Assembly: GCF_006540305.1 (NCBI RefSeq)
Contig: NZ_BJOR01000001.1
Span: forward strand, 5,270,001-5,334,000
Reading direction: 5' to 3'
Origin: Streptomyces sp. 6-11-2
Lineage (GTDB): Bacteria > Actinomycetota > Actinomycetes > Streptomycetales > Streptomycetaceae
Length of the DNA: 64,000 bases
Shown here: in pieces, positions 3,042-45,699 of the stretch
Layout of the letters: the number at the start of each line of letters is the position of its first letter
How positions within the stretch are numbered: position 1 is the first letter of the stretch
The notes under the pieces: model-generated
Databases searched by the model: none
Told to the model about the DNA's origin: nothing
What the model saw: the letters and a program-made list of their open reading frames with translations, nothing else
Made by a program: the position numbers and the translations under genes

Positions 3042-3998
3042 TTGAGCGACAGCCGACACGTCCCCGTGATGCTCCAGCGGTGCCTGGATCTGCTGGCGCC
3101 CGCCCTGGAGCGGCCGGGAGCGGTGGTCGTCGACTGCACCCTCGGCCTCGGCGGACACAGCGAGGCGCTGCTCACCCGCTTCCCCGAGGCGCGGCTGGTG
3201 GCCCTCGACCGCGACAAGGAGGCCCTGCGCCTGTCCGGCGAGCGCCTGGCCCCCTTCGGCGACCGGGCCACCCTGGTGCACGCCGTCTACGACGAGCTGC
3301 CCGACGTGCTCGACCGGCTGGGCGTCCCGCGCGTGCGGGGCGTCCTGTTCGACCTCGGGGTGTCCTCGATGCAGCTCGACGAGGCCGACCGCGGCTTCGC
3401 CTACGCCCAGGACGCCCCCCTGGACATGCGCATGGACCAGAGCACCGGGATGAGCGCCGCCGAGGTCCTCAACACCTACCCGCCCGGCGAGCTGGTCCGC
3501 ATCCTGCGGGCGTACGGCGAGGAGAAGCAGGCCAAGCGGATCGTGGCCGCCGTCGTGCGTGAACGCGAGAAGGAGCCGTTCACCAACAGCGCCCGGCTGG
3601 TGGAGCTGATCCGCGACGCGCTGCCCCAGGCCGCCAAGCGCACCGGGGGCAACCCGGCCAAGCGCACCTTCCAGGCGCTGCGGATCGAGGTCAACGGCGA
3701 GCTCGCCGTGCTGGAGCGGGCGATCCCGGCCGCGGTGAAGGCGCTGGAGGTCGGCGGGCGGATCGCCGTGCTGTCGTACCACTCCCTCGAGGACCGCCTG
3801 GTCAAGCAGGTGTTCGCGGCCGGCGCCGCGTCGAGTGCGCCCCCCGGGCTCCCGGTCGTGCCCGAGCGCTACCAGCCCCGGCTCAAGCTGCTCACCCGCG
3901 GTGCCGAACTTCCGACCGAGGAAGAGATCGCCGAGAACCGGCGGGCGGCGCCGGCCCGGCTGCGCGGCGCCGAGCGCGTCAGGGAGGACGTCGAGTGA
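3042..3998 (+). CDS. rsmH: 16S rRNA m4C1402 methyltransferase RsmH (MraW)
   Basis: 318 residues, normal for the family. It methylates N4 of C1402 in 16S rRNA with S-adenosylmethionine. The start [13 protein letters not shown] and the SAM-binding loop [14 protein letters not shown] (about residues 29-42) are family hallmarks, as are [20 protein letters not shown] and the C-terminal [11 protein letters not shown]. The start is TTG at 3042, preceded by GAGAGGG. It opens the dcw cluster as in most bacteria, with ftsL 13 bases downstream. Confidence 0.96.
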
Positions 3999-4011
3999 GC
4001 CAGGGGGACCA

Positions 4012-4599
4012 GTGAGCAGGAAACCCGAACTGAGGGGCCGTGCCGCCCGACTCGCCCGGCTCTTCCCGGCCGGCCGGGGCCAGGCCGCCCGCACCCCGTT
4101 CGTCCTCCTCGTCGTGCTCCTGCTCGGCGGCGGCCTCATCGGGCTGCTGATGCTGAACTCCGCCCTCAGCGAGGGCGCGTTCCAGCGGGAGGCGCTCCAG
4201 AGGGACACCAAGAACCTCACCGACGAGGAGCAGGCCCTCCAGCGGGACATCGACTCCTACTCCGCCCCGGACGCCCTCCAGCTCCGCGCCCGGCAACTGG
4301 GCATGGTGCCCGGCGGCGACCCGGCCTTCCTGGGCGCCGACGGGACCGTCAAGGGCGTCCCCTCGGCCGCCCCCGCGCAGGAGACGCCGCTGTCGCTCCT
4401 GCCGCCCGTGGCGCTCGCCCCCTCACCGTCCGCCACGGACGGCACCGCCCCGGCAACCGCGGGCCTGGCACCGCCACCCGCCCAGGGCCCCGCCCCGACC
4501 CCGGAGAACACCACCCCGGCCCTCCCGGCCGCACCTCCCCCCGCGCCGACCCTCCCGGCCGCACCTCCACCCGCCCCGACCCCGACCCCCGGCAGGTGA
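4012..4599 (+). CDS. ftsL: Cell division protein FtsL
   Basis: 195 residues, a bitopic septal protein that joins FtsQ/DivIC to activate FtsW-FtsI. The start GTG at 4012 has GGGGG upstream. A basic N-terminus is followed by one membrane segment (about 29-50), a short heptad-like extracytoplasmic helix (about 50-80), then a long Pro/Ala-rich tail. The tail ends in two copies of LPAAPPPAPT encoded by a 30-bp tandem repeat (4521-4550, 4551-4580). The TGA stop overlaps the GTG of a small downstream ORF rather than ftsI itself. Identification rests on position and topology, since FtsL sequences diverge strongly. Confidence 0.88.
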   Translation: MSRKPELRGRAARLARLFPAGRGQAARTPFVLLVVLLLGGGLIGLLMLNSALSEGAFQREALQRDTKNLTDEEQALQRDIDSYSAPDALQLRARQLGMVPGGDPAFLGADGTVKGVPSAAPAQETPLSLLPPVALAPSPSATDGTAPATAGLAPPPAQGPAPTPENTTPALPAAPPPAPTLPAAPPPAPTPTPGR

Positions 4600-5020
4600 C
4601 GGACGTGTCCGACCGCGAACCACCGCGCCGTCCGGTCCCCGGGCCGTCCGGGCCCGACGTGCTCGACAGGGAGCCGCCGCGTCGCCGGGTGGCTGGCCTG
4701 TCCGGGTCTGCTGGGCCGGGGGTGCCGTCGTGTCCGGGGGTCGTGGTCGGCGCGGCCGGCTTCGTTGTGTCCCGGTCCGATCCGACCTGGACTTTCGGCA
4801 GGTTGGCGGGCGTGTCAGGTGGGGAGTGGCCGCGCCGTCCGGTGCCCGGGCCGTCCACGCCCGACATGTCCGACAGGGAGCCGCCGCGTCGCCGGGTGGC
4901 TGGCCTGTCCGGGTCTGCTGGGCCGGGGGTCGGGTCATGTTCGGTTTCCGGGGGTGTCGTGGTCGGCGCCCCGGCCGGCGTCACTGTGTTCCGGTTCGCT
5001 TCGATCTCGACTTTCGGCAG
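4596..5020 (+). repeat. Imperfect tandem duplication of the ftsL/ftsI junction
   Basis: Two units, about 4596-4801 and 4802-5020, precede ftsI, whose own first bases (5021 on) form the third copy. The junction GGCAGGTGACGGACGTGTCC occurs at 4591 and again at 5016. The middle copy (near 4797) carries a base difference and an extra base, so the stop is lost there and the two units read as one ORF. Both units share the stretch coding DREPPRRRVAGLSGSAGPG. Confidence 0.85.
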
Positions 5021-5024
5021 GTGA
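4596..5024 (+). CDS. Repeat-derived small ORF between ftsL and ftsI
   Basis: 142 residues, not a recognised protein. The GTG start (4596-4598) overlaps the ftsL stop, and its TGA (5022-5024) overlaps the GTG of ftsI (5021-5023), so it could relay ribosomes between the two. Its N-terminus VTDVSDREPPRR copies the FtsI N-terminus; DREPPRRRV-type motifs recur along it and both halves end in TFGR. It has no membrane segment I can support. It appears to have arisen by tandem duplication of the ftsI 5' end (see 4596-5020). Expression is plausible from the coupling, but function is unknown and it may be passive. Confidence 0.5.
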   Translation: MTDVSDREPPRRPVPGPSGPDVLDREPPRRRVAGLSGSAGPGVPSCPGVVVGAAGFVVSRSDPTWTFGRLAGVSGGEWPRRPVPGPSTPDMSDREPPRRRVAGLSGSAGPGVGSCSVSGGVVVGAPAGVTVFRFASISTFGR

Positions 5025-6979
5025 CGGACGTGTCCGACAGGGAACCGCCGCGTCGCCGGGTGCCCGGACCCGCCAGGCAGGCGCGTCCGGCCGCGCGGCA
5101 GCGGCCCGGCCCCGGTGCCCGGCCGGCCCGCCGCCCGGCGTCGGCCCGGCCCCAGGCCGCGCGCATCCGGCTCGGCAGCCCCCGTCCCCGGTTGCGGCTG
5201 GTCGCCCTCGCGCTGACCCTGGTGCTGCTCGTGTTCGCCGTACGGCTGTTGCAGGTGCAGGCCGTCGACGCGAGCGCGTACGCCGCCAAGGCCGAGGAGA
5301 ACCGGTACGTGGTGCACACCCTGGCCGCCGAGCGGGGCCGCATCACGGACCGCAACGGCGTCGACCTGGCGACCAGCGTGGACGCCGACGACATCACCGC
5401 CGACCCCACCATGTTCAGCCGCGACCAGCTGCACATCGGCGACGGCCCCGAGCAGGCGGCCGCGCTCCTCGCCCCGATCCTCGGCCAGGACCAGGCGGCC
5501 CTCACCGCGAAGCTCCGCACGCCGAACACCCGCTACGTGCTGCTCGCCCGGCACGAGACCCCGCAGGTCTGGAGGCAGATCAAGGACCTGAAGACGGCCC
5601 TGGCGAAGAAGGCCCAGAAGGACAAGACCACCGTCAACGTGCTCGCCGGCGTCTTCTCCGACCCCAGCAGCAAGCGGGTCTATCCCAACAGCGGTCTCGC
5701 CGCCGGGATACTGGGCTGGGTCAACGCCGAGGGCAAGGGCGGCGGCGGTATCGAGCAGCTACTGAACGAGCAGCTGGCCGGCAAGCCCGGCAAGATCCGC
5801 TACGCCCAGTCCGGGGGCCGCGAGGTGCCCACCGCGGGCTCCACCGAGACGCGCGCGGTGCCCGGCTCCGACACCGAGCTCACCATCGACCGCGACATCC
5901 AGTGGGCCGCCCAGAAGGCCATCACCGAGCAGGTGGCGAAGTCCGGGGCGGACCGCGGCTACGTCATCGTGCAGGACACCCGCTCCGGCGAGATCCTCGC
6001 CATGGCCAACTCCCCGGGCTTCGACCCGGGCGACCTGTCCCACGCCGACCCGGCCGCGCTCGGCAACGCCGCCGTCCAGGACGCCTACGAGCCCGGCTCC
6101 ACCGCCAAGGTCATGTCCATGGCCGCCGTACTGGAGGAGAACGCGGCGACGCCGCTCACCCACGTCGTCGTGCCCAACCGGCTGCACCGCGGCGACCGCC
6201 TCTTCCAGGACGACGTCGACCACAACACCTGGTACCTCACGCTGAACGGCGTGCTCGCCAAGTCCAGCAACATCGGCACCATACTGGCCACCGGCCAGCT
6301 CGGCAGGACCCAGCCGGAGGCCAACAAGGTCCTCTACTCCTACCTGCGCAAGTTCGGCATCGGCGAGCCGACCGGACTCGGCTTCCCCGGCGAGACCCGG
6401 GGCATCCTCGCGCCCCCCGACAAGTGGTCCACCTCGCAGCAGTACACGATTCCTTTCGGCCAGGGCTTCTCCATCAACGCCGTGCAGGCGGCCTCCGTCT
6501 ACTCCACGATCGCCAACGGCGGAGTGCGCGTGCAGCCGACGCTGGTGCGCGGGACCAAGGGGGCCGACGGCCGCTTCGCACCGGCCGACAAGCCGGAGAA
6601 GACGCGGGTCGTGAGCGCCAGGACGGCGAAGACGCTCGCGCACATGCTGGAATCCGTGGTCGACGACGAGCAGGGCACCGGTGCCAAGGCGCGCATCCCC
6701 GGCTACCGGGTGGCGGGCAAGACCGGCACGGCCAACCGCGTGGACCCGGCCACCGGCCGGTACCGCGGCTACACCTCCTCCTTCGCCGGGTTCGCACCCG
6801 CCGACAACCCCCGCGTCACCGTCTACTGCGCCATCCAGAACGCCACCAAGGGCAGCTACTTCGGCGGCCAGATCTGCGGCCCGATCTACAAGGAGGTCAT
6901 GGAGTTCGCGTTGAAGACGCTCCAGGTGCCACCGACCGGTGCGCAGGCCGCGAGCCTGCCCGTCGACTTCAAGCCGTGA
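5021..6979 (+). CDS. ftsI: Septal penicillin-binding protein FtsI (class B PBP)
   Basis: 652 residues. A transpeptidase crosslinking septal peptidoglycan, partner of FtsW. After a basic Pro/Arg-rich cytoplasmic tail comes one membrane segment (about 59-77), the PBP dimerisation domain, then the transpeptidase domain with the three active-site motifs: S360-T-A-K363, S415-S-N417 and K567-T-G569. The GTG at 5021 is chosen because it gives the tail VTDVSDREPPRRRV and overlaps the upstream stop (GTGA). The frame is open further upstream to 4730, but only through duplicated sequence. Confidence 0.96.
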   Translation: MTDVSDREPPRRRVPGPARQARPAARQRPGPGARPARRPASARPQAARIRLGSPRPRLRLVALALTLVLLVFAVRLLQVQAVDASAYAAKAEENRYVVHTLAAERGRITDRNGVDLATSVDADDITADPTMFSRDQLHIGDGPEQAAALLAPILGQDQAALTAKLRTPNTRYVLLARHETPQVWRQIKDLKTALAKKAQKDKTTVNVLAGVFSDPSSKRVYPNSGLAAGILGWVNAEGKGGGGIEQLLNEQLAGKPGKIRYAQSGGREVPTAGSTETRAVPGSDTELTIDRDIQWAAQKAITEQVAKSGADRGYVIVQDTRSGEILAMANSPGFDPGDLSHADPAALGNAAVQDAYEPGSTAKVMSMAAVLEENAATPLTHVVVPNRLHRGDRLFQDDVDHNTWYLTLNGVLAKSSNIGTILATGQLGRTQPEANKVLYSYLRKFGIGEPTGLGFPGETRGILAPPDKWSTSQQYTIPFGQGFSINAVQAASVYSTIANGGVRVQPTLVRGTKGADGRFAPADKPEKTRVVSARTAKTLAHMLESVVDDEQGTGAKARIPGYRVAGKTGTANRVDPATGRYRGYTSSFAGFAPADNPRVTVYCAIQNATKGSYFGGQICGPIYKEVMEFALKTLQVPPTGAQAASLPVDFKP

Positions 6980-20102: not shown

Positions 20103-21323
20103 ATGCCGTTGACCCCCGAGGACGTGCGGAACAAGCAGTTCACGACCGTCCGCCTCCGAGAAGGCTATGACGAGGACGAGGTCGATGCCTTCCTCGACGA
20201 GGTCGAAGCCGAGCTGACCCGACTGCTCCGTGAGAACGAGGACCTGCGCGCCAAACTGGCCGCGGCCACGCGCGCTGCTGCCCAGAATCAGCAGAACATG
20301 CGCAAGCCTCCGGAGGACCAGCAACCACCGCATCCTCAGCAGCAGGGCATGCGAGGGCCGGGCGCTCCGGTGCCCGCCGGGATATCGGGCCCGCCGCAGC
20401 AGCAGATGGGCGGCCCCATGGGTGGTCCGCCCCAGCTGCCCAGCGGCGCCCCGCAGCTGCCCGCCGGCCCGGGCGGCCAGGGCCCTCAGGGTCCCGGCCC
20501 CGGCCAGATGGGTCCTGGACCGATGGGCCAGGGCCCGATGGGCCAGGGACCGATGCAGGGTCAGATGCCGGGTCAGATGCAGGGTCAGATGCCGGGTCAG
20601 ATGCAGGGCCAGATGGGTCCCGGCCCGATGGGCGGCGGCCCCGGTCCGATGGGTCAGGGTCCCGGTCCGATGGGTCAGGGTCCCGGTCCCATGGGCGGCC
20701 CCGGCCCGATGGGTCAGGGTCCCGGTGGCGACAGCGCCGCGCGCGTCCTGTCGCTGGCCCAGCAGACCGCCGACCAGGCGATCGCCGAGGCCCGGTCCGA
20801 GGCCAACAAGATCGTCGGCGAGGCGCGTTCGCGTGCCGAGGGTCTGGAGCGTGACGCCCGTGCCAAGGCCGACGCCCTGGAGCGGGACGCGCAGGAGAAG
20901 CACCGCGTCGCGATGGGCTCCCTGGAGTCCGCCCGCGCCACGCTGGAGCGCAAGGTCGAGGACCTGCGCGGCTTCGAGCGCGAGTACCGCACGCGCCTGA
21001 AGTCGTACCTGGAGTCGCAGCTGCGTCAGCTGGAGACCCAGGCCGACGACTCCCTCGCCCCGCCGCGCACGCCTGCGGCCCCGTCCCTCCCGCCGTCCCC
21101 GGCGCCCTCCATGGCCCCGGCCGGCGCGAGCGCCCCGTCGTATGGCGGCGGCCAGCCGATGGGCGGTGCGCCCGGCCCGTCCGGTCCGTCCTACGGCGGT
21201 CAGCAGCAGATGGCCCCGGCGATGACCCAGCCGATGGCCCCGGTGCGTCCGCAGGGCCCGGCCCCGATGGGTCAGGCGCCCTCGCCCATGCGCGGCTTCC
21301 TGATCGACGAGGACGACAACTGA
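20103..21323 (+). CDS. divIVA: Polar growth protein DivIVA
   Basis: 406 residues. Coiled-coil scaffold that marks hyphal tips and drives apical growth in Streptomyces. The N-terminal membrane-curvature domain ([27 protein letters not shown]) and first coiled coil (about 25-60) are followed by a Gly/Pro/Met/Gln-rich linker (about 75-215) made of GPGPMGQ- and [12 protein letters not shown] repeats, a second long coiled coil (about 215-305) and a Pro/Gly-rich tail ending [14 protein letters not shown] 20103 with GAGGTGAAGAG upstream. The linker DNA is a degenerate tandem repeat likely to vary in length between strains. Confidence 0.96.
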
Positions 21324-44419: not shown

Positions 44420-45439
44420 GTGAGTACGCGCACGGCACAGGCATTTCGGCCCGGGGACGGCGTCGTGTGCGCGGTGCGCGGACTGACCCGGACCTACCCC
44501 GCGGTACGCGGCCGGCGCGGCGCCCCCGGGACACCCGCGGTGCTGGCCACCGACGCGGTCGAACTCGACGTCCGGCGCGGCGAGATCTTCGGACTGCTCG
44601 GACCGAACGGCGCCGGCAAGTCCACCCTCGTACGCCAGCTCACCGGACTGCTGCGCCCCGACAGCGGCACGGTCGAGATCCTCGGCCACGACATCGTGGC
44701 GCACCCCGAGCGGGCCGCGCGGATCCTCGCCTACCTCGGGCAGGAGTCCACCGCCCTGGACGAGCTGACCGTCTCGCTCGCCGCCGAGACCACCGGGCGG
44801 CTGCGCGGCCTGGACCTCAGGCGGGCGCGGGCCGAGCGGGACGCCGTCCTCGACGAGCTGGGTCTCGCGCCGATCGCCGGGCGCCCGCTGAAGAAGCTCT
44901 CCGGCGGCCAGCGGCGGCTCGCCTGCTTCGCGGCCGCGCTGGTCGGCGAACGCCCGCTGCTGGTGCTCGACGAGCCGACCACCGGGATGGATCCGGTGGC
45001 CCGGCGGGCGGTGTGGTCCGCCGTCGACCGGCGGCGCGCCGAACGCGGCACGACCGTCGTCCTGGTCACCCACAACGTCATCGAGGCCGAGACGGTCCTG
45101 GACCGGGTCGCCGTCCTCGACCAGGGCCGGGTCATCGCCTGCGACACCCCGGCCCGGCTCAAGGAGCGGGTCTCCGGCGAGGTGCGGGTCGAGCTGGTGT
45201 GGCGGGAGCGGGCGCCCCTGGAGGTGGCGGAGGTCGCCGTGCTCAGGGAGCGGGCCGTGGAGTCGGGTCGCCGCTGGACGCTGCGGCTGGCGCCCGAGGA
45301 CGCCCGCGCCGCCGTCGCCACGGTCACCGGCGGGGCCGCCTTCGCCGCCCTGGACGACTTCACCCTGACCACGCCCAGTCTGGAGGACGTGTACCTGGCC
45401 CTGGGCGGCGCCGCCCGGCAGGGGCTGGTGAAGTCATGA
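44420..45439 (+). CDS. ABC transporter ATP-binding protein (DrrA-like)
   Basis: 339 residues. Walker A LLGPNGAGKSTL, signature LSGGQRR, Walker B LLVLDEPTTGMDP, H-loop VTHNVIE, and a C-terminal DrrA-type extension. Pairs with the downstream permease as an ABC-2 exporter; substrate unknown. GTG 44420 lies 8 bases after TACCCT (44406-44411), a leaderless-type promoter. The stop overlaps a small ORF, not the permease. Confidence 0.92.
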   Translation: MSTRTAQAFRPGDGVVCAVRGLTRTYPAVRGRRGAPGTPAVLATDAVELDVRRGEIFGLLGPNGAGKSTLVRQLTGLLRPDSGTVEILGHDIVAHPERAARILAYLGQESTALDELTVSLAAETTGRLRGLDLRRARAERDAVLDELGLAPIAGRPLKKLSGGQRRLACFAAALVGERPLLVLDEPTTGMDPVARRAVWSAVDRRRAERGTTVVLVTHNVIEAETVLDRVAVLDQGRVIACDTPARLKERVSGEVRVELVWRERAPLEVAEVAVLRERAVESGRRWTLRLAPEDARAAVATVTGGAAFAALDDFTLTTPSLEDVYLALGGAARQGLVKS

Positions 45440-45699
45440 GCCGTGTGGGCGCCATGAGTGGCATGAGCGCGGGGAGCGGCGGATCCGTGCAGGACTACGC
45501 GGGCGCCGGCAGGAACCCGTCCGGTGCGGGAGACGCTGCCGCGCCCGCCGCGTGCGCCGCCGCGGACAAGCCGGCGGCGTCGTTCGCTGCCGCAGGTGAG
45601 CCGGCTGCGTGCGCCGCCGGCGGTAACCCGGTGGCGTTCGCTGCCGGAGGTGAGCCGGCCGCGTGCGCTGCCGCAGGGAAAGGGAGCAGTTCGACGTGA
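45436..45699 (+). CDS. Low-complexity small ORF between ABC ATPase and permease
   Basis: 87 residues, Ala/Gly-rich, no recognised domain. ATG 45436 overlaps the ATPase stop (ATGA); its TGA (45697-45699) overlaps the permease GTG (GTGA). The second half is a degenerate tandem repeat: ACAAADKPAASFAAAGEPA, ACAAGGNPVAFAAGGEPA, then ACAAAGKG, in units of 57 and 54 bp (45550-45606, 45607-45660, 45661 on). It may be a translated spacer that keeps the operon coupled rather than a functional protein. Confidence 0.45.
   Translation: MSRVGAMSGMSAGSGGSVQDYAGAGRNPSGAGDAAAPAACAAADKPAASFAAAGEPAACAAGGNPVAFAAGGEPAACAAAGKGSSST

Follow-up and report, generated by a model that had tools for sequence, protein, structure and literature searches.

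The junction between ftsL and ftsI is duplicated in tandem in the window, the whole stretch of 64,000 nucleotides of Streptomyces sp. 6-11-2 that was analysed, and in seven further species. The duplication is confirmed as a real and recurrent feature; most relatives do not have it. In all eight species an ORF that opens with an ftsI-like start ends at the stop of the next junction. We consider it likely, from the arrangement of frames, stops and starts, that these spacer ORFs are kept open so that ribosomes can reach the next start by translational coupling. The features at the window junction are as follows.

3042-3998, plus strand: gene upstream of ftsL, which we take to be rsmH
4012-4599, plus strand: ftsL, GTG start, 195 codons; its stop TGA (4597-4599) lies within a Shine-Dalgarno-like AGGTGA
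4591-4607, plus strand: first junction cassette, GGCAGGTGACGGACGTG, with the ftsL stop, AGGTGA, GTG 4596 and a second GTG at 4605
4596-5024, plus strand: relay ORF, with a head that resembles ftsI and a tail that resembles ftsL
4596-4801, plus strand: repeat unit 1, 206 bp, delimited by sequence comparison
4797-4814, plus strand: degenerate middle junction, GGCAGGTTGGCGGGCGTG; the stop is lost and one extra base joins the frames
4802-5020, plus strand: repeat unit 2, 219 bp, equal to 206 plus 12 in the interior and 1 at the degenerate junction
5016-5032, plus strand: last junction cassette, with the relay stop TGA (5022-5024) in AGGTGA, GTG 5021 and the probable ftsI start GTG 5030
5030-6979, plus strand: ftsI (PBP, transpeptidase) from its probable start, or from 5021 should the GTGA overlap serve as start

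Exact copies of the 20-bp junction GGCAGGTGACGGACGTGTCC stand at 4591 and 5016, and the DNA from the ftsL stop to the last ftsI start holds two diverged tandem units of 206 and 219 bp, which agree at 80% over 164 nt when aligned without gaps and at 81% over 239 columns with gaps. The middle copy of the junction reads GGCAGGTTGGCGG; an extra T and a change of A to G have removed the stop, and both units form a single ORF of 142 codons (139 if read from GTG 4605). Its first four bases overlap the ftsL stop and its last four overlap GTG 5021. The repeated junction, the two units and the erased stop had all been described in an earlier sequence-only reading of this DNA, and all are confirmed. Pairing of the degenerate middle junction with the anti-Shine-Dalgarno sequence is weaker than that of the intact cassette (−7.0 versus −11.4 kcal/mol). 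The GC content of the relay ORF at codon positions 1, 2 and 3 is 0.73, 0.70 and 0.82. The ftsL product gives a match of 26.2 bits to the DivIC/septum formation initiator family of Pfam, slightly under the cut-off of 28.9, and is up to 86% identical to FtsL of relatives, and the ftsI product matches Transpeptidase with 243 bits and PBP_dimer with 48 bits.

An assembly error, the alternative that the sequence-only reading had left room for, is ruled out. The copies have diverged by about 20%, they lie inside a contig of 7.98 Mb, and similar cases occur elsewhere, in contigs of 9.4-10 Mb in G009, G007 and G342 and in draft genomes in the other four expanded species. A mobile repeat was considered and rejected as well: compared with the whole 8.73 Mb genome at E≤1e-3, the repeat region matched only itself, with no second copy. 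Tandem repeats of 12-24 nt are also present at 20517-20726 of the window. No sigma-70-type promoter was found in the region 4000-5300; two terminator-like stems were seen there, one of them on the plus strand at 4744-4758 (0.2 in shuffles). The relay region has no special RNA fold (z −0.82). AGGTGA was not less accessible in its own context than between shuffled flanking sequences (n=59, p=0.08), and on this comparison a hidden Shine-Dalgarno sequence was rejected.

The consensus of the junction cassette is GGCAGGTGACGGA(A/C)GTG. Its AGGTGA pairs with the 3′ end of 16S rRNA, a tail that the genome has in six copies, with a duplex energy of −11.4 kcal/mol. At both intact junctions of the window the stop lies within AGGTGA, one GTG overlaps it by 4 nt and another GTG follows 5 nt past the stop. 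The TGA of AGGTGA serves as ftsL stop in 205 of the 214 unique junctions; the nine exceptions are two loci from other genera, the divergent L022, two loci that contain N and four in which the ftsL frame is shifted. In 162 of 185 unique junctions the GTGA start and the GTG at +9 are both in the FtsI frame, four have no cassette, and the other 19 have a GTGA start that does not match the FtsI frame. Because 17 of these 19 have an in-frame start nearby, at +8, +10 or +11, the ftsI start is probably GTG 5030 and not the GTG in GTGA at 5021. The AGGTGA that holds the ftsL stop is then probably the Shine-Dalgarno sequence of GTG 5030. The GTGA overlaps reported earlier for both ends of the relay ORF are thus present, but by the classes among the 185 junctions the one at 5021 is probably not where ftsI begins.

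The survey of other species drew its loci from 40 relatives, 80 named contigs, 120 regions located by their junction in a draw of 392 genomes, and further loci. The 80 named contigs were the best named FtsI matches, all from Streptomyces except one titled Kitasatospora. In total 274 loci encode FtsI; FtsL is also visible in 247 and out of view in 27, and 214 junctions are unique. Since the genomes were drawn largely by junction pattern, the frequency of duplication in this set is biased. The distance from the ftsL stop to FtsI residue 51 is 125-200 nt in 197 of the 214. Comparison with the junctions of other Streptomyces, in line with the alignment that the sequence-only reading had proposed as a check, yielded the seven further species with a duplicated junction. 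The expanded loci are the window, L003 (G009), L009 (G007), L064 (G311, S. griseus subsp. griseus NRRL WC-3645), L143 (G342), L096 (S. barringtoniae), L142 (G042) and G276, the contig of which ends within ftsI. At this junction L064 does not differ from L144, a named Streptomyces contig.

In L003 two relays stand in series, and the eight species together have nine units between intact junctions, with lengths of 113, 176, 203, 218, 239, 239, 248, 368 and 425 bp (113-368 bp in the seven further species), so that the duplications set 113-616 nt between ftsL and ftsI. All nine units are 2 mod 3 in length and none is 0 mod 3. All nine are also open from the upstream GTG through to the TGA of the next cassette, and the last AGGTGA-GTG is intact in each of the eight species. 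The L143 and L142 units contain stops in the FtsI frame.

Among the 17 unique junctions that fall outside 125-200 nt, no duplicated junction in a wrong frame was found. Ten non-expanded junctions among these 17 are explained or were dropped, and L279 is merely short (106 nt). Not counted as expanded were L035, which has a longer FtsI tail; L204, which has N inside and a repeated stretch; L054 and L098, with N; L070, L169, L181 and L264, in which the ftsL frame is broken, in the assembly or really; and L026 and L030, from other genera. In L204 (G308) the stretch at the 5′ end of ftsI is repeated around the N, probably as a local assembly artefact. The pattern CCGGCAGGTGACGCAGTGCC, with one mismatch allowed, matched in 70 of the 392 genomes, not all matches being ftsL/ftsI junctions, and gave no close double. 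A further draw from the genus, centred on G342, brought up the same genomes again.

For 21 of the 80 named loci, fewer than 400 nt of contig remain upstream of the FtsI match. The junction often breaks draft assemblies, and duplications may therefore be undercounted; its extreme GC content (about 80% in the window) may be the cause of the breaks. Hidden repeats at these contig breaks are unsupported, as 11 of the 21 broken ends were examined and hold at most one junction each. In the one-contig assembly of L021 (G012), at about 1417-1500, a run of N and a sequence that resembles a transposon-end primer stand in place of ftsL, following what by eye is an apparent acyl-CoA dehydrogenase gene; this is probably mis-scaffolding.

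The chance expectation for an open relay was obtained from head-to-tail duplications made in silico at 174 unexpanded junctions. With random breakpoints 16636 of 52200 trials (31.9%) gave an open relay, and with breakpoints at 8-nt microhomology 290 of 1494 (19.4%). On a FastTree tree of 187 ftsI rows, from which G276 is absent as it has no ftsI, parsimony requires seven changes of the expanded state. L096 is a near neighbour of L143, as is L142 of L003, and unexpanded rows are equally or almost equally near; G276 was placed with L142 by DNA (84% over 368 nt). Judged by distance alone on the ftsI tree, the eight expanded species make up about five groups. If the five groups are five events, the chance of open relays in all is 0.319^5 = 0.003 or 0.194^5 = 0.0003. 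The relays of L096 and L143 can be aligned over 255 columns at 72%, therefore at least some duplications are old, with losses, or were exchanged, and what appear as several duplications may be a single old event with losses or exchange. By eye, a degenerate middle junction like that of the window is also found in the relays of L003 and G276. That of L003 agrees with the window over 64 nt at 75%, although a long tree distance separates L003 from the window; the shared form may reflect common origin, exchange or convergence.

The likeness between junction copies is confined mainly to 30-60 nt around the stop, Shine-Dalgarno sequence and start. In nine pairs of a junction and the next one downstream, identity is 90% at −15 to 0, 96% at 0 to 15, 80% at 15 to 30 and 75% at 30 to 45, and it falls to 35-47% beyond −30 and beyond +60, or 35-44% when the upstream limit is set at −45. 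This pattern may reflect selection on the cassette or merely the reach of the copied piece. The interiors of the relay units are largely unlike between species groups, and when unit interiors were compared with the ftsI and ftsL flanks, 2 of 28 comparisons gave p values of 0.015-0.02 and the others at least 0.10. At E≤0.01 the window relay ORF has no Pfam family and no homologue in the protein collection; thus neither the conserved sequence nor the homologues that mark a functional small protein were found for it.

The two window units differ at 12 first, 12 second and 10 third codon positions (dN 0.189, dS 0.176, dN/dS 1.07), and their length difference of 12 beyond the frame-joining base was placed as 9 + 3 by a protein-guided alignment, a method in which gaps of another kind cannot appear. 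The relays of G042 and G276 differ at 13, 15 and 13 sites without a gap (dN 0.195, dS 0.191, dN/dS 1.02). Lower ratios were found for L096/L143 (0.55), L003/G276 (0.47), window/L003 (0.54) and the two L003 units (0.62, on just five differences), and third-position changes are in excess in three of the six comparisons. Gaps in nucleotide alignments are 3 + 18 nt for L096/L143 and 120 nt for the L003 units; those of the poorly alignable pairs window/L003 and L003/G276 are not multiples of three. Because dN/dS is 0.47-1.07 in the relays versus 0.13-0.39 in the ftsI body of four pairs, amino-acid constraint on the relay ORF appears weak or absent; frame and ends are kept. Under neutral change the probability of meeting no stop is 0.60 and 0.69 for two relay pairs; stops are rare in such sequence, therefore openness by itself says little and the weight rests on the frame.

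A second relay ORF was found in the same window.

45436-45699, plus strand: relay ORF of 87 codons with tandem repeats, between the genes of an ABC ATPase and an ABC-2 permease

It overlaps the ATPase stop (45437-45439) by ATGA and the permease start (45696) by GTGA. The pair was followed in 80 loci, taken from the own genome, 23 relatives and 50 chosen genomes (mostly large contigs, plus the expanded species); after two incomplete loci and six repeats were dropped, 72 unique junctions with both genes were left. A single relay ORF with 4-nt overlaps to both genes is present in 57 of these, the window included, with 28 distinct lengths between 6 and 246 codons, and in 12 the two genes overlap directly by 4 nt. 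The remaining three comprise two relays of two links and one junction where the permease may start 3 nt past the ATPase stop. The longest relay, of 246 codons, is in L370 (G056) and keeps the relay frame with a repeat spacing of 81 nt. The two-link relays, in L335 (G396) and L369 (G330), have 20 + 7 and 3 + 29 codons, as if a change of frame had been bridged by an extra stop/start hand-over. In G330 the ftsL stop lies 16 nt past the junction (L181), therefore assembly indels may be present in that genome.

On a tree of all 72 junctions, with the direct ones pooled, there are 50 changes of spacer state and 11 changes of frame class versus about 33 expected (binomial 1e-10); the expected value is two thirds of 50, and in-frame repeat slippage and kinship beyond parsimony are still in the figure. 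Without the 12 direct junctions, which are one whole frame class, 44 length changes stand against 3 class changes (P 1e-16 at an expectation of two thirds, 8e-10 at one half); the test on all 72 is the fairer one. A caveat on this count is that repeats whose unit is a multiple of three gain and lose length in frame even when no selection acts. A strict path survives a random deletion of 1-2 nt in 2535 of 4200 ABC copies (60%), because every TGA that follows A, G or T creates an overlapping start and because one of the wrong frames runs on into the permease; the frame-class count is therefore the better test.

In view of the above, the likely mechanism is one in which the ftsL-stop/ftsI-start junction was duplicated in tandem and retained only in forms that do not interrupt translation. 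Ribosomes would end ftsL inside AGGTGA, which is the putative Shine-Dalgarno sequence of the next start, then start the relay ORF, translate it as far as its TGA, which likewise sits in an AGGTGA, and pass on to ftsI. Selection would act on the frame, on freedom from stops and on both junction cassettes, and the peptide would be a by-product. The mechanism could be reinitiation, the unfolding of RNA around the start, or shielding of the mRNA against Rho. Selection for uninterrupted translation is suggested because only forms that ribosomes can cross were seen over distances of 113-616 nt. The earlier proposal that the insertion is kept for coupling stands as far as the uninterrupted path goes, with nine of nine units in eight species versus a chance of 32% and with the frame rule at the ABC pair; from these patterns we infer the coupling, namely that ribosomes reinitiate, that ftsI needs this reinitiation, and that selection removed the duplications that broke the frame.

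Four other explanations have to be weighed against translational coupling. Under neutrality the duplications would be junk, ftsI would use its own Shine-Dalgarno sequence, and frame and openness would be chance in GC-rich DNA. That few single changes create a stop here, that ftsI retains its own AGGTGA and GTG, and that the duplication is absent in most relatives, including close kin of the expanded species, would fit this, but the finding of all nine units in the sole relay-giving frame against 32% by chance, and of 11 class changes in 50 spacer changes against 33 expected at the ABC operon, make it unlikely. Somewhat less probable still is that the open ORF acts on the transcript, keeping ribosomes on the RNA and so blocking Rho-dependent termination or decay before ftsI, with reinitiation unimportant. 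The same frame rule is predicted, and Rho loads on untranslated RNA in bacteria, as stated in a review (PMC12548453). For protection alone, however, alike stop-in-Shine-Dalgarno cassettes at both ends would be needless, as would the 4-nt overlaps kept at the ABC pair. Rho loading sites are typically G-poor, and all eight units measured have 35-43% G and are not G-poor, yet C exceeds G in three of the eight.

The two remaining explanations assign the region a protein product. A functional small protein, for example a mimic of the cytoplasmic tail of FtsI as the sequence-only reading had suggested, could account for the repeated DREPPRRRV-like heads and for the four dN/dS values of 0.47, 0.54, 0.55 and 0.62. 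The resemblance to the tail does exist, but it arises because the start of ftsI was copied. The values of 1.07 and 1.02 in two comparisons, the lack of a homologue or Pfam family, and interiors that are largely unlike between groups and change faster than ftsI (31% of sites differ in the L096/L143 relay versus 7% in the ftsI body) make such a function very improbable, and the suggested competition of the peptide with the FtsI tail finds no support in the same observations. The least probable explanation makes the region an N-terminal extension of FtsI, read in frame with FtsI from a start further upstream. In the window this frame is indeed open upstream to about 4157, with candidate starts at 4730, 4826 and 4937, but an extension would favour units of 0 mod 3, none of which occur, and the FtsI-frame stops in L143 and L142 and the intact last AGGTGA-GTG in all eight species speak against it.

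Translational coupling of this kind resembles termination-reinitiation at overlapping or nearly overlapping genes, as described in PMC6728339, PMC10666635 and PMC12548453: the genes are on the same strand, stop and start are a few bases apart, a Shine-Dalgarno sequence lies at the junction and a dependence on short distance is expected. For three E. coli pairs, PMC10666635 gives a loss of coupling or reinitiation of 80-100% with a gap of 38 nt. Unlike in such pairs, an extra ORF of variable length that derives from a copy of the junction stands here between two conserved genes, and it is kept in frame with an unconserved interior. There is also a likeness to small upstream ORFs with a proposed role in ribosome delivery, such as that of iraD in E. 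coli (PMC5574718); short ORFs that serve solely to deliver ribosomes are mentioned as a proposal in a 2025 review (PMC12548453). In contrast to the iraD type, the relays sit inside an operon between two genes, arose by junction duplication or, at the ABC pair, contain in-frame repeats, and occur at two unrelated gene pairs. Among the listed titles and abstract beginnings of open-licence PMC literature, no such junction duplication or relay ORF in Streptomyces was described.

In Streptomyces, ftsL and ftsI are reported as necessary for sporulation and dispensable for growth (PMC8092295). If the coupling reading is true, the persistence of accidents of length only in the coupling frame is comparative evidence that ftsI needs ribosomes from ftsL. 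The ABC ATPase/permease pair is an unexpected second example in the window, which strengthens the reading of ftsL/ftsI and suggests a general test for coupling, namely spacers that vary in length mostly within one frame class. We see even odds that relay ORFs form a general class in Streptomyces operons, with free sequence and length and with fixed frame, openness and stop/start cassettes, and we give the same even weight to the corollary that DNA inserted between coupled genes persists as a ribosome bridge of one link or two. Small ORFs inside operons that appear in ribosome profiling may then be bridges without a peptide function, and relay ORFs would document, as experiments made by nature, how strict the dependence of each gene on coupling is.
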